DNA from: Thozetella sp. PMI_491
Lineage: Eukaryota; Ascomycota; Sordariomycetes; Chaetosphaeriales; Chaetosphaeriaceae
Assembly: GCA_021432635.1 (NCBI GenBank)
Contig: MU270021.1
Coordinates: 1-64,000, forward strand
Length of the DNA stretch: 64,000 nt
Reading direction: 5' to 3'
This document shows, piece after piece, positions 8,124 to 57,912 of this stretch (position 1 is the first letter of the stretch; each line of letters opens with the position of its first letter). A program made the position numbers and the translations under genes. Below the pieces are notes generated by a model that had not been told where the DNA came from, ran no database searches, and was given only the letters and a program-made list of their open reading frames with translations.

Positions 8124-8177
<54 letters not shown>

Positions 8178-18034: not shown

Positions 18035-21000
18035 TTACTTGCCAGATTCGTCGTCCTGCAGGGCGTAGTCGTCAAAGACCTTGTCATCAAAGAGGTAGTC
18101 AAGGTCACCCAGCGCCGGGTCATCCGGCACTAGGAGCGAGTCCGGCAGGACAAGGTAGTCCTCAGCACTCCATAGGCTGTCGTTAAGCTCGAGCATCACA
18201 GGGTCAGACTCGTACTCGGCGTCAAAAGCTACGTCAAGGTCTGCCCAAGCGCCCGCGTCAGGCTGCGTTACGCTGAGCGATAGCATGTAGCAGTCGTCAA
18301 CCTCGCCGTTGGTGATACTGTAGGCCACGTCGGACGATTTGAGCATCGCGAGACCCCCCTCGATATCCTCGCCCACGAGGAACACGTGCGCCGTCTGGTT
18401 TCCCTTATACGTGCACACAGCAGGGAAGAAGACGTTACCCGAGGCATCCGTGGCTGCAAGAAGGCTCGAATCCATATCGTCGTATTGGAAAGGGGCGAGC
18501 ATTCTGTTGTTTTACGCCTTGGTTAGCCCGGTCCGAAGTATCGGCAAAAGAGGATAGCAGGTAGGACAGTCAGGAAGGGAGCTTACATCCAGACGGAAGA
18601 GTCAGGGAGATGTTGATTATCCGCGGTGCGCAATCGGCTCACACCAACTTTGTCCATGGTGTTGTTGTAATAGTGTAGGATATCGCCTGTCGGGGCTGAC
18701 ATCACAGTATCCTGGTAGCCAGACCATAGGGCCGTGCAAGTGATGTACCAGGGCAGCTGGCTCAGCGCGCTCTCCTTCTGGACGTAGATATTGCCGTCAT
18801 TGCAGGAGACCAAGATGTACTTGTCTCCACCATTAGAGCCCGTGTTGACCTCCACGGTCGAGTACCAGTACCCGTCAAAATCCTCCATGAGCCAAGGCGT
18901 CACCGGGTACTTATGGCCATCGTAGCCCAAGTCGATGTCGTCACTGACAACGTATCCGGTCAAGTCGTAGGTGTGCACGGTCGAGCCGTTGGTGGCGACG
19001 CCAGAAGTGGCGTTGACAGATGTGGCGTTGACAGACGTGGTGTTCGTCAGAGCGCGGCGGGAGAAGTCGTAGCTGAGGCGGTCCCGCGCGGGCCCGTCGA
19101 TAAGCAGGGCGGAGCGCTTCTCTTCGGCGGGGCCCAGCCAGCCGATACGGCCGCTGGTGGTGTTGTCGGTCTTATTGCCGATGCAGTAGGACGCAATGAT
19201 GTAGTCCTTGGTTTGGTGGAGAACGGCCTTGTTTTTGTATCCAAAGCCCTTGATCTTAGCATTCACGTCATTGCGTACAGAGAGCGTAGTCGAGATGCCG
19301 GAGCAGTTGTTCACGGGCTTGATGCCCTTGGTGAAGTTCTTGGTGACGGGGTCATAGCCCGCCTCGTAGGAAAAGGCAGCCTGCGCTTTGATGGAGGGCA
19401 CGGTGTCAATACCGATCGTGCCTTTACAGAAGTCACATCCGTTGCCCACGCTCAGGCCGAACTCCAAGCCAATTGGCATGCCAAAATCGACCCAGGCCCT
19501 GACGGAACCGCTAGCGTTGAACTTTGGGGTCCAATCCGGCACGAAACCCGACGTCTGGATATCGCCCCCCTTCTTGAAATCATACGTGAAGTTGGCCCGC
19601 ACAAGGGTGGCTTCGACGCCAGCGAGGGCCGATCCCGTCATGTTGACGCCAAACTCGAGCGATGTCCCGATGGAGAGGATCGGCCCGACGTGAATGAAGC
19701 CGAGGGTGAAGGGTGAGAGCGGCACGTCGTACAGGTTCTGCTCGAACTTGGCCTTACTCTCGTACGAGGCGAAGATGCCCAAGTTGACCGACGCCTTGAG
19801 ATCCATGGTGCCGTCGATTATGCCGGCTGTGATACCGTTCTTTAGATCGATAGTGACGTTGCCCTTCGCCTTCAGAATACCTGTCACGCCGCAGTCGACG
19901 CAGTAGAAGTTGAGAAAGCCGGCGGAGGCTAACTTGGTCTGCTTCTTGCTGCCCTTGGGATGCTGTTTTTTGTACTCGGCCGGGTCTCCAAAAGTTTTAA
20001 GAAGCAGCGCCTTGTCACCCCACGGCGACTCAATCGCGGCGGCTTTGGATTCCGTCTTTGGCTTGCAGGCATTCTTCAGCTTTTTGGACTTCTCCTTGTC
20101 ATTCTTGGCCTCGTTGCACTCCTTTTTGGGGCGGGGAAGAAGTAGCTTCTCCTTGTCAACCTCGCTGCTGTAGGTAATGGGCTTGCCCTCCAAGATGTCG
20201 GTAGCCAGCTTCTTGGCTTCTTGGAAATTGGTTACGACGGTATCTTTGAGCGCGACAGCCTTCTGCACCCCCCGGTCTATCGTCTGGACCACTTTATCCT
20301 TGGTCTTTGCCATGGTTTCGGTGCCCGTCTTGTGTACGTTTTGAACTACCTGTTTTGTGGATTCAGTAGCTCTGTTAAATCCCGTCTTAACAAGGCTGAT
20401 GAGATCTCGCTTGGCAAGCTGTGCGGGGTCGATCTGGATATTTTTCACGATGTCGCTGAATGAAAAGCTGCTCAAGTCGGGATACCCAAGGCCGTCGTCT
20501 AGGTCGTCATCGAACTCTGGGCCCCAGCAGGCAGTGGGCAGCCCATACTTGGTATCAACAGGAGCGACGCACCGTGCAGTCGGGGCAGGATAGACGTTAT
20601 AATCGCCCGTTGCGGTCGTCGCTGCTGCATTGGCCGTCGCTGATGGGGTTGTACTCGCGCCGGTGCTAGCCGGCGCACCCTGGTTGATCTCTTGATGGCC
20701 GTAGTTGCCCCATGCGACGTTGATATCAATTACAATATCTTCGAGAGGCATGGCTTGGCCGACACAGCGCGCGGTAAGGGAGTCAGCGAAGAAGATGACC
20801 TCCGTGGCGTGGAAATAGCAGCGCTGGCCAAGATTGTAGTCGCCGCAGTTCTCGGTGTACGTGACGAAGACAAGCTCTTGAGCTGCCCAAACAGTGGAAG
20901 AGTGGTTGAATGCATCCTTGTCATTGAACGTGACGACCAAGTGGCCGCTCTGGTCGACTTGAATACTTAGGATGAATCCAGAGTGATCCAATACAATCGA

Positions 21001-21484
21001 AGGCAACGACCATCTTGGAATAGCCACAGCATAAATGCCGCCAGCCCCTGCACAAATGTATTGTGAACATTTCAAATTTAGAAAAGAACCGATTGCTCGG
21101 ATATCTGGTGAGACGGGAAACCATCTACGTACCCTGCTCTGACGGCGTAGAATAATGCAGCGGAGCCCCAGTCCCAACGTCATGGGGTGAGAGATGGTCG
21201 ATGTCGTTCCAATCGTGATCATGGGGCACAGCCGGGGTTAGGGTCGCCAACGGGCCTACTTTACCGTAGGGAAAGTCATAGTCGTCGCCGGATGATGTGG
21301 CAGTCGGGCAGACTGTAACAGTCTTAGTGACTCCAATGACCGTTACATCCGATGAATTTGTCGAGATAGAGCTATTCCATATTGAAGTACTGTTTTTCGA
21401 GCTGAACAGATGGGATGGGTGATGCCGAGGGTGGGCGAGAGCCTCGGCGGCACCCAGAAATAGCGCTATCAATGTCCACCTCAT
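18035..21484 (-). CDS. Large secreted protein, paralog A of three
   Basis: Exons 21133-21484, 18587-21047 and 18035-18503 (introns of 85 and 83 nt) join in frame to 1093 residues. A signal peptide starts MRWTLIALFLGAAEALAHP. A HDHDWNDIDHL segment and IVLDHSGFILSI precede a Ser/Thr/Ala linker. Then come YGLPTACWGPEFDDDLDDG (near 286-305), a Kex2-like KR at AKRDLIS, a Lys-rich helical region, SPWGD, NFYCVDCGVTG (CxxC, ~500-504), and a repetitive beta-rich domain with IGPILSIG-type strands. The C-terminal region has NDGNIYV, VSRLR, and a third-exon VFFPAVCTY block ending in an acidic tail. Paralogs B and C share the same order. I recall this as a fungal DUF family (DUF7029/DUF7223), but am not sure of the accession. 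Function unknown; probably extracellular or cell wall. Confidence 0.85.
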
Positions 21485-22824: not shown

Positions 22825-25800
22825 TCACGGAGTTGTGCTACCAGTTAGTTGAAGTGGCATACTCTTTGCATCGGCATACCCCGTGTAGCTTGTAATTTGG
22901 TCCACTGGGTTAGCCACAAGAGGCAGGTAAAAACACTTGTTAACAACACCGCCTGTAATGCTATGTTGGACGGCCGAGCTCTGAAGGATGTTCGCTCCTT
23001 CAACAGGATCCTTGGCTAGGAAAATCTTGGGCGTAGTGTCGTCGTTGTAAACGCATGCAATAGAATAGAGAACTTGACCAGTGGAATCGACACCGAAATA
23101 CAACCCATCGTTGGATTGATCCTCGTCGCCGGCCAGCGTGGAGTTGTATCGTTGAAATGATATCAAAACTCCGTCTCTGGGCATATTCTTTTCGCTCGAT
23201 ACCCGCAGCCGCGATACGCCAGTTGCTCTCAGGGCCTGGTCGTAGAAGTGGATGATGCGATGAGCCCCGTCGCCAATCACGGTTCCATTTACGAAAGCCC
23301 ACAACCCCGCGCAAGTGTCGTCATCTCCTGTAATGTGACCGTCAATGGCATAGACGTCGCCTTCTCCACATGTTGCGAGGTACAGAGATTTGTCGGGGAC
23401 GGTAAATAGATCGTAGCGATATCCATTAACCCCAATGTAGGGGTACATGGGAATGTCTGGAACGTTGTAGGTGACTGTATCGTTGAAATTATCAACCACG
23501 AACTTAGTAACGTCCACGAGCTCGTCGTCGCTTTGCGTATCGTTGAACGCACGTGGACTGAGCTCGAAAGGGAAAGCGGGCGCTGAAATGGATCTCTGGG
23601 TCGCGCCAGGGAGCCTGTGGTGATTTGATTAGCATACAGCTAGGAAAATATAAAGAGAAGGGTAGCCATACTTGATGCAATTCCTACCGAGAGATTTATC
23701 CTTTGTGTCATGGAGTTCGAGGGTTTTGAGACCGAGAACGTCAATCCAGAGTCTGTTTCTCCAGCTGATTTCGGTCGCAATGCCTTTACAACCATCAATT
23801 GTCGTAAAGCCACCCTTCAACTTATTATTTGACTGTAAACCAATACTGGCGGCTACCTGTGCCGTGGCCTTGATTGACGGCTCGTCGATGACACGGAGGG
23901 CCTTGGTCCATTTGGCGATTGTAATCCCCAGCTCGACACTAACAGGGAGGCCGAGGGTTGCAGCCAATTCAATCTTGCCTGAAGCGTTGAAAACGGGAGT
24001 GAAGTAAGGATCCCACCCATTCTTGAAGCTCTTGTCGGGATTGACAAAATCAGCATGGGTGTGGCCCTCTTTGATGCCAAACTTGGCGCCTGCAAGAAGC
24101 TGTCCCTCAGCTTGAGTTTCCAGGGTGACACGGGTGCCGAGGGCAACGCTAGGGCCAATAGAGACCAATGATCCCCAGCTCAGCCCGGGAAGGCCGATTC
24201 TTAGGAGCGTTGACTCCCAATTTTTCTCGTATGAGATTTGCGCATCGATACCCAACTGGAAGACGAAGTCGATGTTAGCCTTAAAGTCGGCATAGCCCTC
24301 AGAAACCCCTCCAACTGGGCTCCAGGCCGCCTTACCAGCAATGCTGGCGCCTCCGGAAACTCCACAGCCTACGCAGTAGACATTCATGTAACCAGTCTTG
24401 CCCTTGTTCGTGATTGACTTAAGGAGAATGGCATCTCCCCAAGGCGAAACAGCCTGCCTAGCCTCCTTGTTCTGAAGCTTTCTGCTGGCTGGTTTGGCCG
24501 GGTCGGGGAGTCTGAACGAGATGCTTTTGTTGATTGAGGCATGGATGGTAGTCGCTTTCTTAACTGTATCAACCACGACCTTTGCGACTTTCTTGACGAC
24601 CTTGATGAGTTTCTTGATAAATCTCTTGTTGTGAAGCTGGTCTCGAGACAGTAGAGCGATCTCTCTGCGCACCTTGCGTGAGGTGTACAAATCTGAGAGG
24701 AAAGGGACGTCGGGGTCGTTCATATCCGCAGGGTATTCGTTATCCTCGAGGTCATCACCGCCGAGCTCTGTAAGGTACCTTTGATATGCCTCGGGGAGGT
24801 CTTCCTCATATCCAATCTGATCATCCAGATCTTCATCGAAGTTGCCTCCGAAGCAAGCGGTGGGTAACCCATACGTGGTGTCGGGAGGCGCGGTGCAGTT
24901 TGATATGACAGTGCCGAAATTTGTTCTGCCAGCGGTGTCGGTGGAGTTATTGCTAGTGGAGTTATTGCTAGTCGAATTATAGCTGGTCGAAGTTCCATTC
25001 CAGTTGACATTCGAACCGTAGGGGGTGGAGCTGTTGCCACCTGTTTTAGGCGTGTACCAACCCCATTCGGTCTCGCCCTTCGAGATGATATCTTGACTAT
25101 GGCAGAACTCGCCAGAAATTACAACGGTGAGATCTGCCATAAACTGGACGTTTGAGGCTCTGAGATAACATCTCTCATCAACTTCATAACCAGGGCATCC
25201 GGGCGTGTAAGCCATGACAATCAAGTCAATGTCGATTTTCCAGTGGCTCTTGGCATAGTTGAAAGCTTCCGTTGTGAGAAAGGATACTGTGTAGCCAGTG
25301 CTTGATGCCACCACACTTGATACGTGGTCACTGTGGTCCAAATTGACCGACGGCGTAGTAAAGTAATACGTCAGGAAGGCAAAGTAATGGGAGGCAGTCG
25401 GGTCTATGGCACATTTAGTAAGCTACGGTTTGGGAGGAATCACTGTGACTGACCTCCGAGGCCAAAGTAAAAAGGAGACCCGGATCCGACTGGCAAAGGA
25501 ATGACGTTTGTAGCCGGCGCTGTGTCCCATTCCCAATGCACAGCAGGCTTGAGAACATGAGCAGGTCCAGGATCGATGTATATGGGATCATCGAGGCGCG
25601 GAGCGTCTGAGGGATATGAGGCGCCCACCACGGGTGTGCTGGCTGATGGCGGTGCGGCGGTTTTGGAAACACTGGGCACCAACGGAGAGTCGTCGATGCA
25701 TTGCCGAGGCGCACACCCGCCTTCGGGCGTCTCGTAGACGAAGACAACCTCAAACGCCTTTGGATCCATGGTGGCATTTGTAGTTGCAGCAGCAGCGAAG

Positions 25801-28352: not shown

Positions 28353-31300
28353 ATGGTGCCTTTTCTTTTGGGGCTTGCAGCCTTCATCGGCTCGGCCGTT
28401 GCTGTTCCGAAGAGTTTCCCTCTTCGCGGACGCTATACCAACTCTTCCGTCGCTCAGAGTGCAAGCTCATTCCTCCCCTCCACCACGAGTCTCTCGAGCG
28501 CCAGGCTCAACATCAGCACTAGCACTACGTCGAGCTCCAGCACTCTCGCGTCTCCTTCGGCGGTAGCTGAAGGCCTGGATACCCTTTCTCCTGGATTTCA
28601 TTGGGACCATGACCCGTATGATCTGGATCATCTCAAGCCGGACCATCAGAATCAGCTGCATTGGAATCCAGGGTCAACTAACGGTACGGAGAGCTCGAAA
28701 ACTTTACCGAGAATTAACCAAAGCATTTGCTGATACTGCCTATAGCGTATCCCGATCATGGCCACGTCGTCGTCAACTCTGACCTACAGTTCAACTTCCC
28801 CACAGTTGTCCTGGACCACTCCGCCTTGATCTCCGTCACAATCATTCAGTCCACTGTCAACATTATCTTTACCTCTTCGGAGGCCTACCAGATTGCCAAA
28901 GAGACTTGGCAGGAGACTACTACAGTGATCTTGGTTACCTCTGCGTCATCGGACTCTGGCCAGTATGACTACCACCAAGCGACTTCGGTCGTCTTCGATG
29001 ATATCCTTATGAAAGCCGTCTGGGCTACAGCCCAGATCGCGCTTGAGGAGGCAATCCAGCATGTCCACTTTCAATGGGGTACATACCAGCAGGGAAGTGA
29101 CTCCAGCTCTTCCCCCCCGAGCGGCAATTCCCCATCTGGATCAAGTTCCTCTGGTTCAGGCCACGGGTCTAGCTCCGGCCCTTCCGGCCCGGGCTCTGGG
29201 TCTGGCACCGGTCCTTCCGGCTCCGGCTCTTCTGGTTCCGGTTCCAACTCCAACTCTGACTCTGGGCCGAGCACTCCGTCATCTGATTCACTAACACCGC
29301 TCCCAACTCCCGTTGCTACAGATGTGTACTGCGGCGACTACTTGGCCATACCAACAGCCACTCCTGGCCCCGACTTTGACCGCGATCTGGATGACGCCCT
29401 CTGCTATCTGGTCTGGAGCGAAGACAACTTCGAATTCGATATTGAAGAATTTGCGAACGGCTTAAACGATACAGACTATGCAGATTATACCGACGGCGGT
29501 TATGTTTTGGATGAGGACGGAGTGTGGGGACCTGACGGTGATCTAGAGACCTCTACCTCGGTTAAGAAGAGGGCTCCTGTCAAACAGCCCCCCAAAAAGG
29601 CGCCAGCGCAGCCCAAGAAGCCCGAGCCAAAGAAGCCGGAGCCAAAGAAGCCAGAGCCAAAGAAGGCCGCTGACCCACCCAAAAAGTCCGACCCGCCCAA
29701 AGCCGCCACTCCGTCCAAGGCCACCGTCCCGCCCAAAAAGTCCGATCCTCCCAAGGCCGCCACTCCGCCCAAGGTCGCCGACCCGCCCAAGCAGGTCGTC
29801 AAGGCGGCTGCCAAGGTGGCGAAGAAGACTGCTATGGTTACTGAAGCACAACTGCCGGCTTATATGGCTAAGCTTAAGAGCATCTATTCCGATGTGCAAA
29901 CGTGTGCAGTAGGCATCACAAAGAAGGTTGCTGGCCGCGATCTCCAGCCTAGGTTCGATTGCATAAGCATGATTGAAAAGTGGAAGTCATATCTCGATGG
30001 AACTGTGCATCCTTTCAGCCTTGTCGACAAGGAGTTCGATTTCCCTACTACCAGCCAAGTCACCTATGTTGACCAAACTACCTTCGTGGATAAAGATACC
30101 AATACGCCGCGCAAGGCCTTCACTCTCGCGTCCAAGGGAAACACCGACGAAGGCAATGGCATCACAGTCTATTGTATTGACTGCGGGGTGCATGCCAACC
30201 TCAAGATCGGTGGCGAGGTTGCCTACAACCTTCTGGAAGGCGGCCTCCAACAGGCTGAAGTTACTCTCAATGGGTCGCTCCTTGTGGGTGTGAACCTTGG
30301 AGTCGTGGCTCGGTATGCGTATAAAAATACGTACCAAAAGGATATCGCTCGAGTGCCGATCCCTGGCGCAGGCTTTAATATTCCCCAAGTTCTGAATGTC
30401 GGTCCTTACATCGAGATCAAGGCAGATGCGAAACTGGAGGTCGAAGCATCGGGTACCCTCCTGGCGGGTGGTCAGCTGTCGTTGCCCAACGTGCACGCCG
30501 TTCTCGATTTGAAAGAGCCTAAGAATAGCACAAAGCCTGACTGGACCCCAACGTTCAAGAAAACATTTGAGGCCAAGGGTGAAGTGTCTATCAAAGCTGA
30601 CCTTGCACTGCCAGTCTCTCTCAGCGTGGGCGTCGAGATTCTTGGAAAGGAGGCGGCTAAGGCGGCTATCATTAGCACTCCTAAGATCTCAACCGGTGCC
30701 AGTTATTCCGGTAGTATCGGAGGCAAGCCTGTCCCACCGGTTGACGGAGTTAAGACGGATGATTGCAAGAACGGCATCTCGTATTTCGCGAACGTCGAGC
30801 ACTCGCTGACCGCGGTTGTTAAATTCCCTGGTATCTCCGACGTGGACCCTTGGAAGCTTCTTGACGACTACAAATATCCTCTCGTGGAGGACGCATGTCT
30901 CAAGTAAGTAATTGTTTTTCTCCCAACCAACTCATAGGGCATTAGATAACTTACTAACCAATAATTATAGGCTAGGGAAGGGCAAGCGCCAGCTTAGCAA
31001 CGCTACCTACGTCAACTCCACATCCGTCGACGATTCAGTGCAAGACGACAGCGACCGGTTTATTACACTCGTTCCATATGGCCGAAATGAGACGGCACCG
31101 TTCCCTGATATATTCGAGGATGACAACAACGACGGTCTGGTGGATGATCTCGGATTCGAATTTCCCGCAGAGCTGGATACTTGGTTGAATACCACAGGAC
31201 TCGCCACCGCCCAGCTGACTGCGAGCACTAATAGCAGCGCGCCAAGCTACAACTTTAATTACACGTTCATCATGGACATTACCAATACCTTTACTTTGAT

Positions 31301-41008: not shown

Positions 41009-41812
41009 GGAGAAGATTGAAAGATGGGTCGCGTAATGGGCCGAGAAGGGCCAGCTGCTGCGAGTATCGTCTGAGAAGGAAGAGAGGAGAAGGAATACCA
41101 AGCATGTGGCCTCGCTATCCCTTACATACCCGAGCTGCCGCGCATCAAGCTTTTTGCGCTTGATTCGAGATTTACATGGGAAGCAGCGAGGTTAGGTGGG
41201 CTGGTGTACCTGACAGCTGCAACCAGCCGGCATCATCTGACGCGAGCCGACCTCAAAACAACTCTGGCGCTGAACCCGGCGGGGCAGGCTACGTCACCAA
41301 GGTTATAAAATAAGCGCCCCTACGCTTCGCTTCGGAGCTGATTTCCTCTAGCACACCCTATGCTACGCTCTAGGGCACTAGAGCTGACCATTCTAAAGAG
41401 AATTTATCCGTAACGCACACTGTTTTTACTCCGTAACGCATACTTGACACGAGTGGATGACGCCATTAGAGTCATGACATAGAGGCAGTTCTTACACATC
41501 ACTGGTGATACAGCATGTTGGCATGCTTGTGATAGAGAGATGGATAACACAAGACTAATGCATGGGGTGGGTGACTACTGTCGACACAGCAGGCCTCCTA
41601 GTCACGAGTTAGTCAATAGTTTCTTGAGCCGCCGCCTTCTAGCTGAAGAGTGGGGCTGTTGCTCTCAGCCGCACCCCCCCCCCCCCAAGCCGTTTGTCTC
41701 GACGCGTCATTTTCCCATATATCTATCTGCTAGCTTGCCTACCTTTCAAAATCCGGCCCGAAGATACCTTGCAATATCTGTAGTTAATCCTTTTCAGCGT
41801 CACCCCCTCGCC
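41009..41812. other. Intergenic, divergent promoters, C13 tract
   Basis: About 0.8 kb between the F-box-like and HET genes. Contains a C13 run at 41674-41686 and no supported gene. The HET frame is open upstream to 41540, but the extra codons look like leader sequence. Confidence 0.5.
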
Positions 41813-44800
41813 ATGGCTAAGGTACACATGTCCTCCGGCGCGCCGTCGAACTTCGGACTTATTAGCTTCGACAACCTGAATTGGAACGCTCGAGTACCGC
41901 TCCGGAAGCGCTTGGATACTTTGCTCGAAACTACCACATCTAAGGAAACGGAAGATAAGCATACCTCTTCGTCGAAGGGCACTAGCAACGATGCCGAGCC
42001 CGAAAAGCCGGTCCCATCCCTCCTAGATCTCTTGGCGCTACTGGAAGCCGGCGGAGAGCCCCGCGGCACGTCACACTTTAGAAGATATTATCAGAACATC
42101 GAACGCCGACCATACGCTTGCTCGAATACTCGAGCGAGCGAGATAATATCAAATTTACCAATCGAAAAGCCGCAGCTTGAAAAGCGCCGAAAATCCTTAC
42201 TATCTAAGATTTGGAAAAAGAAACCACCGGCTAGCACCAGCACTCCACGCGGCCACGAGCACTCTCAGGATCATGACCGCGAGCTGATAGAAGAGATACG
42301 GCTTGGAAAAATTCAGCCCTGGCGGCGCCACGCTCTCCTTGATGATGGTTTACATGTACCGCATTTCGAGTACGGAATCGCGTACCCGCCTCCCGAGCTC
42401 CTCGTGAACAGATCGATACATGCGAGAGACCGCTATGCCGGTGCCCATGATTTTGTCTACTATGAGACAATAAGCCATCCGAAGATATACCCGCAAGAGG
42501 ACCTCGTCGACGAGGATGATCTCGTCGAAGGGTCTGTGCCTCAAGCTGCAAGATGGGAGCGACGAAGCACGCTGGTCGATCGGATCTTCCCACCAGAGAC
42601 TCATGGCACCTATGAAGCGGATGAAGGAATTAACCTCCAGTACCATCCAAGTGAGAAGACAGACCATGAAATTCGGGATTGGTACGCCCACAACCGAGCA
42701 GATGAGTCCGACAACGAAGATGAACTGCTTGGTATGCTACCAGCAGAGGTAATCTTCCCGTATTTCGTCGACATATGGAGGAAGAAAAGCCAACAAGCTT
42801 TCTTCGAAAAATTATCCCATTTAGAGGCGTTCGGGGAAGTCCAAGACAAGAACATGCCCAGCTTTGGGATAAATGACATCAGTAGTTGGCTGATGAACAT
42901 GGCTGATAGCACTCGGCGCTGCGCCTTGTGCAGTACGATCAACCTCAATCTCGCATGGATGGAAAGCGTAGATGAGGAAGGAATGCCCGCCCGTCGCATG
43001 GTTTCCCCGACGGTTATCATAAATGAGGAAGGCGAAGAGATAGCACCTCTGCTGCCAAGCTTCAACCAGATGGTTCTGAATTGTCAGGACGGCACTTGCG
43101 GGCAATGCGCCTTCATCGTCAAGATCTTGTTCGCTTCTGTCGGAGCCGACATACTGAGCGCGAATAGTCTTTTCGACCGGGAGACTTTCATCCAATGCTG
43201 TCTCAACCCACCTCTTGGTACCCTGAAGCAATACGTCAGTTTGCTGTCCGAAGAAGCTTTGAAGCCGTTGCCGCGCTTTCCTCCGGCGCCAGAACTCACA
43301 ATTCGACCACCCCATAAGCGGAAAACTTGGGCACAGTCACCTTTTAAGGATATCATCTTGTCAGTTGAGAAGCAATCACTCCCTTTCCCCGATATGCAAG
43401 GGAGCGGGACGCTCGTGAAGGGCGAAGGGATTGACTTAACACGAGCCAAGAACTGGTGGGCACAGTGCCAAGCGGAGCACGGCCAGGGGTGTCAAGTACC
43501 TTTAAAACATAGGTATCCCGGACGGGAGGTGGCAGGGCATCTTTTACGGCTCCTCGATGTTAACCAGAAGAGGGTTGTGGCCGCACCGGCTGGTAGCAGT
43601 TATGTGGCTCTCAGTTATGTTTGGCCGAGAACGAAGAACCTCTTCAAGGCAGAACAGCAGCATTTCCAGCGCCCACGAACCACCCCGATAATGACACCAC
43701 TGAGGGACGATGAAACAGCGTACTTTGATGTCCCCATGGACCGACTGCCCAAGACGATACAGGATGCCATGCGTATAACACATGAAATAGGCGAGAAATA
43801 CCTATGGATCGACGCACTATGCATCATCCAAGACGACATGATTGATGTACAACGTACAATATACAAGATGGACGAGATATATATGGCCGCATCGCTCACT
43901 ATCGTTATGGGGGACCGGAAAGGCGCTGTGCTTGAGGGGGGCCGGCCAAATGTTCACCAGTAGGTTTTGAATCTGATAGTCGCACTCTACTCTTACTCAC
44001 CCCCCGAAACTAGAATCAAGGAGCAGCTTGGAGATACCACCTATGTGCTCCCCCTTCCCCCGATTTCGGAGGCCATCAACCGCAGTGTATGGGGATCCCG
44101 AGGTTGGACATACCAAGGTGAGAAGAGTTTGTAACAACTACCATCTATGTTCCGCCTTTAATCATCCTCTCTCTTCTTAGAATGGCAATTCTCAACTTGC
44201 AAACTCGTCTTCGTAGGCGACCTAGCGTACTATATGTGCGCCCGGTCTCTCTTCCAAGAAGATCGCGTTGAAGGACCTTACAAGATGAACACCGGGGTAG
44301 CCCAATCCGAAAAGTACTTCGAGCACGAGAATACGTATTGCCGCCATGTCGAAGCGTACAGCGCACGCAACCTTACCAATGGCACGGACATTCTGAGTGC
44401 ATTTCAGGGTGTTATGCACTCAATGGAGCCGCATCTACACACCGAGTTCTGCTGGGGCCTCCCGTTGGGCGATTTTGATGGCGCTTTGCTCTGGAGTGGC
44501 GCCGAGAACTTGCAAAGGAGAATAGAGAAGAAGTCCCCTATGCTGGATGCTGAGAGCGTATTGTTCCCTTCCTGGTCGTGGGCGGGTTGGAAGGGCGCGG
44601 TTCGATATCGGCCTAAACATCACACTGACAATCGGTCGGAGCGGACTGTGCATGACGGTGCCGTCAACCGCCTCGGACACCTCACAACGCTGATCACCTG
44701 GCCGTGGCAGATGGGCTTTGACCTTCCGCCCGACGGCACTGATCTGAAGACTATCGTCTCTGACATTCTCCTTCGAGGCATCCTGCGGTTTGTAACGAGC

Positions 44801-45118
44801 GTGGCCCGCGTCAACATCCGCCGGCTTCGTTATTTGTTCGCGCGGCAAGGGATCAGCGGCTGGACGCTGGATGATGGAACAGTTGTGACTGGCGGGTGGC
44901 GGACGTGCATAGTGCTTTCAGAAGTTGAGAACCCATGGATTGGACCCAAGCAACCTCCAATAGGCCAGATTTCCGGACGCTCGCCAGTCACGACATACAA
45001 TGTGATGGTCGTGAAGGAGAAGAAGGGCGGCATATTCGAGAGGAGGGGCATAGTGAAGATCACGAGGAAAATTTGGGAAGCCTGTGAGCCCGAGATTCAG
45101 TGGGTCACTTTGATGTAA
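41813..45118 (+). CDS. Long HET-domain protein
   Basis: Exons 41813-43959, 44014-44117 and 44181-45118 (introns of 54 and 63 nt) join to 1062 residues. The HET core spans about residues 590-760: YVALSYVWPRTKN, then LPKTIQDAMRITHEIGEKYL with WIDALCIIQDD, then IYMAASLTIVMGD, then across both introns SVWGSRGWTYQ-EWQFSTCKLVF. A ~590-residue N-terminal extension is unusual. It is charged, has a Lys-rich patch (SKIWKKKPP), and carries clustered cysteines (CALC, then CQDGTCGQC) just before the core. HET proteins cause vegetative-incompatibility cell death when an incompatible partner is sensed. The next gene on the same strand, 0.9 kb away, is an NLR. I chose the ATG at 41813 because upstream codons lack conserved features. 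Confidence 0.85.
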
Positions 45119-45990: not shown

Positions 45991-48900
45991 ATGTTCACAG
46001 AAATCTATACGTTGTTGGTCTTTGTCTTGGCAATAGGTTTGGGATGGTGGTGGGCATACCCAAAACCCGCTTCGACCAGCGACATCCGCCCACCAAAGGA
46101 AAGACGGACATACCGTGTGCGCGGAGTACCCCACGCCTGGGACCAAGGCAAACTGACGTCTTTCCTGGAAGAGCAAGACTCTTCGACCGCCGCCGTTGTT
46201 CACTCCTTGGCCAAAGAGGTTCATGGTCGCTCGCAGACGGCCACAGTGTCTTTTCGGAACCCACCCCGCCAGCTGGGGATGCTCCTGCCTGGACGGACTT
46301 GGGATGTTCCTCTCCCTGCGTCCTGTTCGCAGCCTGGTGAATCGCCGAGCCTAGCGCTTGATGACAACTTTTTCGGCGTCACAACTCTCTATACCCCTCC
46401 CCCGGACGCCCATAAGGTTGAGTACGTATCCCGCCTCGCGTTTTAATCGCGTTAACTGATCCTCTCTAGCCTCATCGCCATCTCCGGTCTTGGCGGACAC
46501 GCGTTCGGATCCTTCAAGGAGAAGGGAGGAGAGCACATGTGGCTACGCGATGCACTCCCACACCATATCGCCGAAAATGATGGGGGTAGTCCTATCACAC
46601 GCGTTATGGTCTATGGCTATGAATCGAGTCTTCTGCAGAGCAATAGCTTCCAGAACCTGGATGATATTGGAAAGTCTTTTTTGGATAGCCTCCTAGTCTT
46701 AGCTAACACCACGACTTCCCGGCCGATCGTCATCGTAGCGCATAGCTTAGGTGGTTTAGTCGTCAAGCAGGTAAGAATATCGAGGCCCTCCATTATGCAT
46801 TATTCTCAGACTATCCAGTCCTTCATATACCTATCGAAGGCCAGGAGCGATGATCACCAAAGGTTTCTTCGAGCGGTGTATGGAATCGTCTTTTTCGGTG
46901 TTCCACATCTTGGCATGGATATCAGCTCCCTCAAGCCAATGGTAGGAGATGGGCCGAATCGAGCACTTCTTGAGTCAATTGGCACCAATGCACAAGTCCT
47001 CAGCCAGCAGTACGAAGACTTTCGGGCAGCCTTGGAACACCAAGGCGAAGTCGAGGTCGTCTGTTTCTACGAAACTCTGGAGTCGCAAACCGCCATACAG
47101 GTATGCCTTTGTTACCTCTCTCCCCAGGCAAGCTATGCTAATACAGGCAGGATCTAAATGGCAAGTGGGAAATGGACGGGCCTCGCGCGGTTCTAGTGTC
47201 TCCCCAGTCAGCTACGCACTGTCGGCCATGGGAGGATGGGCCGGAGTATAGATGCCCTATCAATCGGACGCACTCAGAAATGGTCAAGTTTGGGCACCAC
47301 GATGAAGAGTATGATAAGGTTATTGAACGAATCAAAGGACTTGCTCGAAGAGCGATTTCCAGCGCACGTGGTAGGTGAAAGGGGCTCATATACGGCAGCT
47401 TGAGGCAGTAATATTAAAGTCTCGCAGGACCATTACGGCCACACCTGTCGCAGAGAGAACTAGATTGCCTGAAGTCGCTAGCCTTTGCGCAGATGGATAC
47501 TCGTGCCAGCGATATTGAACCCGCCGTCACAGGAACAGGCGAGTGGCTTCTTCGGCACATGGCATATACAAGCTGGGCCACTTCGAATCACGGCCTGCTC
47601 TGCATCAAGGGCAATCCTGGCTCAGGGAAGTCAACCTTGCTCAAATATGCCCTCGATCATCAAGAAGCTGCAATTAGAGCCGGAAGCAGTGACCTTGTCC
47701 TATCGTTCTTCTTCCACGGTCGCGGCGATGAGCTTCAAAAGACTCCTCTCGGCTTCTTCCGGCATATTCTTTACCAGCTCCTTAGCCAGGTACCTGCCGC
47801 ACTGTCCGAACTAGTAGACGAATTTCAGCGAAGATGTGAACAAAGAGACAAGCCCGGTGAGCAGCATCAATGGCAGTGGCACCCGGAAGAGTTGTGGCAC
47901 TTCTTTAGGTCGTCACTTCCAAAGGTTCTTGAGACCTACCCAATCTGGTTATTTGTCGACGCCTTAGATGAATGTGGCGAGAAGAATGCAAGACAGCTTG
48001 TCGAAAAGTTCAGATTGTTACTCGAAAGTTTAGTGTCCCAATCTCTCAGCCTCAAACGGTGCCATATCCTGTTTGCTTGCCGGCATTATCCCCTTCTCGA
48101 CGGAAATTGCGAGTTACAAATACGCCCTGAACATGAGAACAAAGAGGATATTTCAGCGTACGTCCAAACCCGCCTCGCCGCATCTAATGCGCTAAAGACA
48201 TCTACCATTGCGAATTTGATAACAGAGCGCGCCAACGGTGTATTCATGTGGGCGCGTCTGGTGGTGGACCAAGCTCTAAATCTCGACACGAGCGGAATAG
48301 GGATAAGGAAGATCAGCGCCACAATAAACTCTATCCCTGAAGAGCTGGGTAGTCTATACGAAGAGCTAACCCGGCAGATGGACGAGAGGGCGACGTCTCT
48401 GAAAGTCATCCAGTTGATCTGCTTTGCTGAACGGCCCCTCTCTCTGGACGAGTTACGCTGGGCTCTGATAGTTGATACAAAATGCAAATACAAGTCCCTG
48501 CAGGAATGTCAGAGCGACGATGAATACGACTGCAATCTGGAGAAGAGGCTCAAAACGCTGAGCCGGGGTCTTGCCGAGCTCACACCATCGTCCAAGTCGC
48601 AGTTTGTTCAGTTCATCCACGAGTCTGTCAAGGACTTTTTCATCAGTGGAGGCCTATTGCTCCTTGAAAACAGCTCGAACACGATTCAAATGGCGATAGG
48701 AATGGCGCACATTCGACTGTCGGGAATTTGCATACAGTACTTGGCTATGGAAGAGATAGACCAGTCAACAACTCACAGTAGCACCGACTTTCCGTTTTTG
48801 GATTACGCTACGATGTTCTGGGTGACACATGCCAAGAAAGGCGACGCCAGTGTCAACCCCCAAGAAGATCTTATGGATTTATTTCCCTGGCCATCAAATA

Positions 48901-49508
48901 CTCTCATGGAAGTATGGGTACGTGTTTACATCAAAAAGGGGCGCTATTCACAAAACTGTCCAGCTTCAGGAACCAGACTGGTACACGTTCTGTCGAGGTA
49001 TGGGATTATCCGGTTATTGACGGCTATCCTAAAGATAGCAGGCCGGATTACAGATATCGACGCAAAAGATGGCTATGGCCGGACGCCGTTATCGTGGGCT
49101 GCTAAGGAGGGCCACGACGCGGTCGTGAGGCTATTACTCGACCGAGGTGCTGAGATTGATATNNNNNNNNNNNNNNNNNNNNNNNNNNNNNNNNNNNNNN
49201 NNNNNNNNNNNNNNNNNNNNNNNNNNNNNNNNNNNNNNNNNNNNNNNNNNNNNNNNNNNNNNNNNNNNNNNNNNNNNNNNNNNNNNNNNNNNNNNNNNNN
49301 NNNNNNNNNNNNNNNNNNNNNNNNNNNNNNNNNNNNNNNNNNNNNNNNNNNNNNNNNNNNNNGGGGCCACGAAGCGGTCGTGAGGCTATTACTCGACCGA
49401 GGTGCTGAGATTGATATGAAGGATACTAATAGCAGGACGCTGTTATCGTGGGCTGCTGAGGTGGGCCATGACGCAGTTGTGGAGCTGCTCCGGGCTTCAA
49501 ATGATTGA
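45991..49508 (+). CDS. NLR-type protein: alpha/beta hydrolase, NACHT, ankyrin repeats
   Basis: Exons 45991-46421, 46470-46770, 46819-47100, 47151-47370 and 47428-49508 join in frame to about 1104 residues (67 unknown in the N gap). A membrane-like segment (YTLLVFVLAIGLGWWW) comes first, then a YRVRGVPHAWDQGKL region. A SesB/DUF676-type hydrolase follows: VAISGLGGHAFGSF-like, AHSLGG nucleophile elbow (Ser ~235), YGIVFFGVPHLGMD. NACHT has Walker A GNPGSGKST (~472) and Walker B WLFVDALDEC (~584). Then a helical linker and nearly identical ankyrin repeats (GHDAVVRLLLDRGAEID). Such proteins act in fungal non-self recognition; repeats sense, the hydrolase is the likely effector. Intron 46771-46818 is in frame and restores VVKQ-SFIYLSK. 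Repeat number is unknown because of the gap. Confidence 0.9.
49085..49500 (+). repeat. Near-identical ankyrin-repeat DNA array
   Basis: About 54 bp before the gap (from GGCCACGA...) and the matching 54 bp after it differ at one base, including silent positions. A more diverged repeat follows (SRTLLSWAAEVGHDAVVELL). Confidence 0.8.
49163..49362. other. Assembly gap (200 N)
   Basis: Exactly 200 N inside the ankyrin array. A round number suggests a placeholder, so true length and repeat count are unknown. The frame happens to continue across it. Confidence 0.99.
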
Positions 49509-52727: not shown

Positions 52728-52762
<35 letters not shown>

Positions 52763-56995: not shown

Positions 56996-57739
56996 GGCAT
57001 GCTACGGAGCACCATGGGGCCAAGGTCACGGCAGGCAGTCTACGAGGTTTGGGGGTAGCCGGGGATCGATTGATACGACGAGTCTTCGCATTGGCGCCAG
57101 CGCATATTCCCCTCGCCGCCGCCTTACGTCTGGTGGCGAAATTGGGAAATGACGGATGCGGGAAACGCTCGTCATCTGGCGCCGTAGATGTACTGAGCGA
57201 CTGGGAAGGCTGGGGTCTGATAGCTAAGGAAGGAAGAAATGAACCTCTGCGTTGCGATTCGAGGCGAATCAGCGGTCGGAGAGTAGGTGGCGTTGGAAGA
57301 AACTTAGGTCCTCTCCTCAGCTAGCCTGACAATAACGGCCGTCTGGGGTCGCTTACAATTTTAGTCGCCTCCTTTCCTGTCTGGTCTGGTCACAATTCCA
57401 AATGAACGTGCTATGATTACTCAGTGTCTGCGGGGGCAACCGACCTAGCCAGGCCCATGGCGCCCAAGGCCCCCTGTACTGGTTAGGTCCGGGATTCACG
57501 ACTAGTCGCTCTCACTCACCACGAAACCTTGGCCTGACCTGAATTTACCTAGTCTTTCCCTCGGGAGGATCGTCCGCGCTCTTGTCATGGTGTCAAGGCC
57601 TGGTCGTCACCGCCGTTTCATTCTTTTACAGAAAATATTTTCATTCCCCGTCCCAGGTATCCGCTTCCCCATGGACTTGGTGACCTTTGTTCAGCTTGCG
57701 GCCCCCAACTCTCGAATCATAACACGAAGTGCCCATCCA

Positions 57740-57912
57740 TGTGCCTTCCATGTGCCTCTCCATGTTCCCCTCCGTGTGCCCCTTCGTGTGCCCCTCCGTG
57801 TGCCCCTCTGCGTTCCCCTCCGTGTGCCCCTCTGCGTTCCCCTCCGTGTTCCCCTCCGTGTTCCCCTCCGTGTGCCCCTCTGTGTGCCCCGTGTTCCCCT
57901 CCGTGTGCCCCA
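57740..57912. repeat. Minisatellite, ~12-bp CCCCTCCGTGTG unit
   Basis: About fourteen copies of CCCCTCCGTGTG and variants (CCCCTCTGCGTT, CCCCTCCGTGTT). Frames through it give a monotonous Val-Pro-Leu-Arg string, typical of chance translation of a repeat. Confidence 0.85.

Follow-up and report, generated by a model that had tools for sequence, protein, structure and literature searches.

Fungal NOD-like receptors (NLRs) in which a sesB-like domain is followed by a NACHT domain and ankyrin repeats (ANK) were described by Dyrka et al. (2014; PMC4986451), and the same domain order is found in a gene on the + strand at positions 45991-49508 of the stretch analyzed here, the first 64,000 nucleotides of contig MU270021.1 of Thozetella sp. 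PMI_491 (GenBank assembly GCA_021432635.1), which we refer to as the window. Near-identical repeats like those of the window gene make up 10% of the annotated NLR ankyrin repeats in PMC4986451, and the variable positions lie on the concave side, a likeness to the arrays found in this genome. The criterion of Dyrka et al. (>85% identity over at least 100 residues) is inapplicable to the window gene, whose array is only partly visible and shows 53/55 identical bases in two copies, with the remainder inside an assembly gap. In contrast to the described NLRs, the gene has a hydrophobic N-terminal helix, and its halves have different nearest relatives. Near-identical sensor repeats also characterize the HNWD genes het-d, het-e and het-r of Podospora anserina (Ament-Velasquez et al., 2025; PMC12222747), which short-read assemblies miscount or break with N runs; these genes, however, have WD40 repeats, an N-terminal HET domain and tested incompatibility, whereas the window gene combines ankyrin repeats with a hydrolase. 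Ankyrin-type NLRs are also represented by P. anserina Pa_3_8560 and Pa_2_8180 (PNP_UDP/NACHT/ANK; PMC4986451, Table 4), where the repeat number varies among isolates from 7 to above 16; their effector domain is different, and the array of the window gene is probably shorter, with about five or six repeats as judged from the gap size. Publications thus already cover the domain order, the near-identity of the repeats and the breakdown of short-read assemblies at repeats of this type (PMC4986451, PMC12222747), and what our analysis adds is that the effector half and the NACHT half have different nearest relatives.

According to a hand-made splice model, the NLR gene consists of five exons from an ATG at 45991 to a stop codon at 49508, separated by GT..AG introns of 39 to 57 bases, and encodes 1108 residues in an uninterrupted frame when the gap is translated as X (Table 1). 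The central domain was matched by the Pfam models NPHP3_N (107 bits, cut-off 24.8) and NACHT (28.5 bits, cut-off 26.7) and contains the motifs GNPGSGKS (47610-47633) and WLFVDALDE (47946-47972), which we take to be Walker A-like and Walker B-like, respectively. Pfam Ank matches above cut-off were obtained on both sides of the gap, while the Pfam scan gave no match in the stretch of about 100 residues after the helix and none above cut-off between the NACHT domain and the ankyrin repeats. A search of the genome (72.3 million bases, 157 contigs) with the hydrolase region returned 67 pieces, merged to 49 loci including the NLR gene itself. The nucleophile motif H-S-L/M-G-G was present in 26 of 28 paralog rows, several of which are pieces of one gene, and the histidine of a second motif in all 26 rows covering that site; both are also found in the NLR gene. 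Two paralogs, as read here, are possibly non-functional or wrongly spliced, one on C43 (L027, G000:C43:374392-375342) with RSLGR where others have HSLGG, and one on C21 (L036) with in-frame stops in its N-terminal part. With its nucleoside triphosphatase (NTPase) domain, C-terminal superstructure-forming repeats and N-terminal effector domain, the gene has the features by which fungal NLRs of the NACHT type are recognized, and the SesB-like hydrolase/NACHT/ankyrin architecture proposed in the initial annotation of the window is supported by the Pfam matches, the Ser/His motifs and the domain order. The TpA/ApT ratio, an index of repeat-induced point mutation (RIP), is 0.73 in the gene, 0.81 in its ankyrin part and 0.80 in the window, and neither the gene nor its ankyrin part shows a RIP signature.

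The ankyrin array is interrupted by the only N run of the window, exactly 200 long as the initial annotation had stated, and this gap is flanked by near-identical repeats. The last 55 bases to its left (repeat A) and the first 55 to its right (repeat B) are equal at 53 positions, with mismatches at bases 1 and 11 after the gap, and 17 of 18 third positions are equal. The annotation's count of one difference in about 54 bp, silent sites included, is obtained once the first post-gap base is dropped (98% over 54). In a control covering the window in 19 chunks of 3.3 kb with repeat distances of 60 to 1500, the top repeated 55-mer elsewhere reached 50/55, within a tandem array of 12-bp units at 57.7 kb; apart from this array, no value exceeded 35/55. 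The left-flank 55-mer found at best 39/55 among 75 other fetched genome loci, and for the 118 bases left of the gap the best matches in the whole genome outside the gene were 78% over 88 and 84% over 67 bases. The last repeat, C, shares only 24/42 bases with B. Divergence is expected at the capping end of a repeat array, and because C has diverged the near-identity is visible between two copies only.

The full gaps in other fetched loci measure 10, 125, 155, 255, 330, 365, 410, 468, and 690 N, and since these lengths vary so widely, the 200 N look like a size estimate and not like filler. Across the gaps of eight other ankyrin arrays, the distance between the best-matching 55-mers (49 to 55 of 55) was near whole numbers of the repeat unit, taken as 99 bases (102 for L011), and mostly slightly short (mean -14 bases, range -33 to +6, simulated p 0.003), and a ninth, in the relative on C6, was 15 bases short of eight units; because of this clustering, the gap sizes of the assembly carry information. 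For the NLR gene, the window 55-mer scan gave an A-to-B distance of 255 bases, 42 short of three units or 57 over two (the comparison of gapped arrays had mis-registered the window, 45/55 at 354 bases). Three unit periods between A and B are loosely the likeliest solution, other numbers being possible, and the gap then most likely hides two whole repeats and the first 44 bases of copy B. The repeat count is thus missing from the assembly, as the initial annotation had it, though the gap is apparently sized at about three periods.

To place the array among others of the genome, 47 loci were listed, of which 39 plus the window gave ankyrin units; with the scan consensus used, no units were found in eight NACHT loci. 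After five overlapping loci had been dropped, 34 remained (27 from the 30 best loci of a Pfam search, five resembling the window repeat, and two paralogs), a sample partly picked by similarity in which the NLR status of each locus is not established; one of them, L072, belongs to an open frame that also encodes a HET domain. Near-identical unit pairs (at least 75/99, up to 95; threshold chosen after the values were seen) occurred in 18 of the 34 loci, while the other 16 reached 63/99 at most. An assembly gap in the array, or within 60 bases of it, was found in 8/18 near-identical arrays compared to 0/16 of the diverged arrays that served as control (Fisher p 0.0024), and the contrast was 4/11 against 0/16 in the 27 Pfam-search loci alone. 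No N run was present in 28 hydrolase-anchored loci (L020-L048, partly overlapping, the window's own excluded), and those at the cut ends of two of the eight NACHT loci (L003, L004) are outside these counts. In the 18 near-identical arrays, 144 of 168 units had their nearest neighbour in their own array, which is the pattern that homogenisation within loci yields. Also outside the 34-locus counts, 99-base-period tandem repeats were seen in L004 and L006 (52 and 53 of 55) and 126-base-period repeats in the NACHT loci L005 and L007 (45 and 48 of 55), the latter period being one that would suit WD40 or TPR units.

The pattern of change within the repeat unit was tabulated descriptively, with no formal selection test, for the 15 of these 18 arrays that have three or more near-identical units. 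The most variable positions of the 33-residue unit were 4, 3, 14, 2, 11, 6, and 15, with few silent changes, and framework positions such as 9, 12, and 24 changed mostly silently. By the standard ankyrin layout, the variable positions are presumably concave-face sites on the ligand side, and the table thus suggests that residue changes concentrate at binding positions across these 15 other arrays. In the ankyrin NLRs of P. anserina, variable and positively selected sites lie, one exception aside, on the inner helices and the hairpin/loop of the concave face (PMC4986451). In the NLR gene itself, repeats A and B differ at unit positions 15 and 18 (variability ranks 7 and 10 of 33), and the seven differences between A and C in the first 24 positions, a range of our own choice, are enriched at variable ones (permutation p 0.008, rank test p 0.017).

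In its hydrolase, the NLR gene is closest to the relative on C86 (61% over 268 residues), followed by the one on C21 (59% over 272 residues), but the NACHT domains of these two are just 38% and 33% alike to that of the gene. Its NACHT domain is closest to that of C6 (57% over 239 residues), where the hydrolase is just 32% alike. Downstream on the same strand, all three relatives carry near-identical ankyrin repeats (C86 88/99, C21 93/99, C6 88 to 91/99), and the arrays of C21 and C6 are gapped as well. In a first tree test (12 genes, alignments anchored on the NLR gene, 250 NACHT columns), the hydrolase rejected a clade of window and C6 in the approximately unbiased (AU) test (p-AU 0.0008), and the NACHT domain did not reject a clade of window, C86, and C21 (p-AU 0.21). 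In a second test (9 genes, realigned, up to 544 residues), the NACHT domain with the following region rejected window, C86, and C21 (p-AU 0.0195) but not window and C6 (0.275); it also rejected window with C86 alone, a grouping that splits C86 from C21. The hydrolase again rejected window and C6 (0.0004), and window, C86, and C21 grouped in its best tree with weak support (56/50). Long branches occurred in both the hydrolase and the NACHT trees. With fair but not firm confidence, the NLR gene thus appears to be a mosaic, its effector half being most closely related to other genes than its NACHT half. Such an origin would be a known process, since exchange of N-terminal domains among NLRs has already been described (PMC4986451). 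Among the other NACHT matches, those at G000:C96:125455, C28:97529, and C15:1167133 lie in open frames of 23,718 to 26,917 residues, perhaps very long adjoining N runs that were read as open.

In a single-sequence AlphaFold2 model of exon 1, the N-terminal helix has a predicted local distance difference test score (pLDDT) of about 89 over residues 1-20 and is the sole usable part, the remainder being of low confidence (mean pLDDT 49.7). The relatives on C86 and C21 (L032, L036) have lysine/arginine-rich stretches at the N-terminus instead, a possible nuclear address.

Taken together, the gene is probably a fungal NLR, i.e., a signal transduction ATPase with numerous domains (STAND receptor), of the SesB-like hydrolase/NACHT/ankyrin type, with an array kept near-identical by exchange within the locus. 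We favor this reading because of the domain order and motifs, the near-identical gap flanks, the recurrence of such repeats in the nearest relatives and in other ankyrin loci, and the ligand-side variation in other arrays. Unequal recombination would gain, lose, and shuffle ankyrin repeats, and the array would bind a molecule of a partner or an invader. Binding would let the NACHT domain switch and oligomerise and thereby activate the hydrolase, which would act, most likely on a membrane lipid, where the N-terminal helix would anchor the protein to a membrane, and would damage or kill the cell or part of it. Domains of the sesB-like type are predicted to be lipases, and indirect evidence points to their involvement in cell death (PMC4986451, PMC9815663). 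The steps after binding are modeled on the NLR family, as is the putative role in non-self recognition; the ligand could come from another strain, a microbe, or the own cell. The observation and the receptor class given in the initial annotation were right, and its description of the receptor as fast-evolving is made likely by how the repeats vary in the genome's other arrays.

Several observations weigh against this interpretation. The near-identical copies that can be seen are two, over 55 bases, and all comparisons lie within one genome assembly. The top Pfam hydrolase model, DUF676, scored 19.7 bits with a cut-off of 20.3, and in the hydrolase, where Ser and His are present, the catalytic Asp of a Ser-Asp-His triad was not identified. 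The window gap fits whole units worst of the gaps measured (-42 or +57 compared to -5 to -33 and one +6). Finally, no equally hydrophobic helix was found upstream in the six paralog loci that could be checked (18 tried, eight with a domain match, six of these with enough open frame; upstream introns left out of account), and the helix anchor is therefore not a family trait.

The visible part of the array could also be explained if a single ankyrin repeat had recently been duplicated in tandem, once, in an otherwise ordinary NLR, with neither shuffling nor fast evolution, and the two near-identical copies next to a diverged last repeat agree with this. However, near-identical arrays are frequent among the ankyrin loci and occur in the nearest relatives of the gene, and the gap leaves room for further copies if its size is meaningful, so that a lone duplication seems distinctly unlikely. 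An assembly artefact, in which the contig ends represent one unmerged repeat and the 200 N hide nothing, would fit the suffix/prefix overlap of the contig ends over 55 bases, and merging them would preserve the frame, the copies being 85 codons apart. Unmerged overlaps may indeed occur in this assembly, since exact overlaps of 95 bases beside a 10-N gap and of 58 bases beside 125 N were found in L012 and L016, respectively, although the latter case means that an exact overlap alone is not diagnostic. In contrast to L012, the window overlap contains two mismatches and the gap is stated as 200 instead of 10, and gap sizes elsewhere lie near whole units; the gap looks real, and we regard an artefact as very unlikely.

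A further explanation accepts an NLR-like protein but assigns it a house-keeping or developmental role, e.g., in secretion or signalling, with repeat identity maintained by gene conversion in the absence of selection for new binding. In Penicillium herquei, a NACHT protein is reported to function in secretion (PMC13311144). On the other hand, the residue changes that pile up at binding positions in the 15 other arrays, where framework codons change mostly silently, speak against it, and we consider this role unlikely. If the gene is a non-self receptor with a shuffled array, as we prefer, the specificity-deciding part of an NLR would be absent from the assembly. The C6 relative and at least eight further arrays of the 34 loci would lack theirs as well. 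Receptor counts or evolutionary analyses made from this assembly would then be unsafe at gapped arrays, and this species would lend itself well to the typing of receptor repertoires by long reads. More tentatively, and as an idea that we find rather doubtful, the NLR kit could be shuffled at three levels, namely the single ankyrin repeat inside its locus, the whole effector half, passed from one NACHT-ankyrin backbone to another, and the N-terminal address. The window gene would then have joined a C86/C21-type hydrolase to a C6-type NACHT domain, and the address would be a membrane helix here and a lysine/arginine-rich stretch in C86 and C21, which would allow one sensor lineage to be re-aimed to different compartments and lipid targets.

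Table 1. Coordinates of the NLR gene, its parts, its relatives, and the neighbouring HET-domain gene (window positions unless a contig is given).
Feature	Position	Strand	Content or basis
Exon 1	45991-46421	+	N-terminal hydrophobic helix and N-terminal domain without annotation; splice model
Hydrophobic helix	residues 2-22, 45994-46056	+	single-sequence structure model
N-terminal domain	about residues 38-140, in exon 1	+	common to some paralogs
Exon 2	46470-46770	+	hydrolase core; nucleophile motif A-H-S-L-G-G, Ser codon 46744-46746, residue 236
Exon 3	46810-47100	+	hydrolase; paralog matches
Exon 4	47151-47370	+	hydrolase end; T-H-S-E-M-V-K-F motif, His codon 47271-47273
Exon 5	47428-49508	+	NACHT, following region, ankyrin repeats; gap read as X
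NPHP3_N/NACHT NTPase domain	47532-48083	+	Pfam
Ankyrin repeat A, last one left of gap	49065-49162	+	Pfam Ank, unit scan
Assembly gap, 200 N, within repeat array	49163-49362	.	sequence
Ankyrin repeat B, tail portion	49363-49418	+	53/55 bases identical to A
Last repeat C, diverged, plus stop codon	49419-49508	+	Pfam, unit scan
C86, C21, and C6 relatives	L079, L080, L081		paralog loci compared with 45991-49508
Nearest NACHT relative (L081)	G000:C6:151913-155700		hydrolase of another clade, NACHT, and ankyrin repeats broken by 468 N
HET-domain gene, two open frames treated as one	41483-45118	+	HET domain 43601-43921, 77.5 bits (cut-off 22.5), first frame

The HET-domain gene ends 872 bases upstream of the start codon of the NLR gene on the same strand, and its second open frame gave no Pfam match. 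That it might be a conserved partner of the NLR was considered and rejected as unproven. Counting the best 150 HET matches of the genome, the window's own not among them, HET matches lay within 5 kb of 3/49 hydrolase loci (1.0 expected, p 0.08), within 10 kb of 5/49 (2.0 expected, p 0.048), and within 20 kb of 7/49 (3.9 expected, p 0.09). The nearest NACHT relative has a neighbouring HET gene, too (C6:149763), which is absent from the 55 other matches of the window HET protein, among the matches listed.

Elsewhere in the window, fungal transcription-factor domains were noted, which together with the introns and the HET domain suggest a filamentous fungus. A cluster of large proteins comprises 18583-21237 and 28718-30907, both with DUF7029 and one also with DUF7223, as well as 22825-25422, which was assigned by eye. 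Homopolymer runs of 42 C (8124-8165) and 32 G (52730-52761) were seen, and the 12-base tandem array at 57729-57911 (15.6 copies) lies within a Cys- and Pro-rich open frame.
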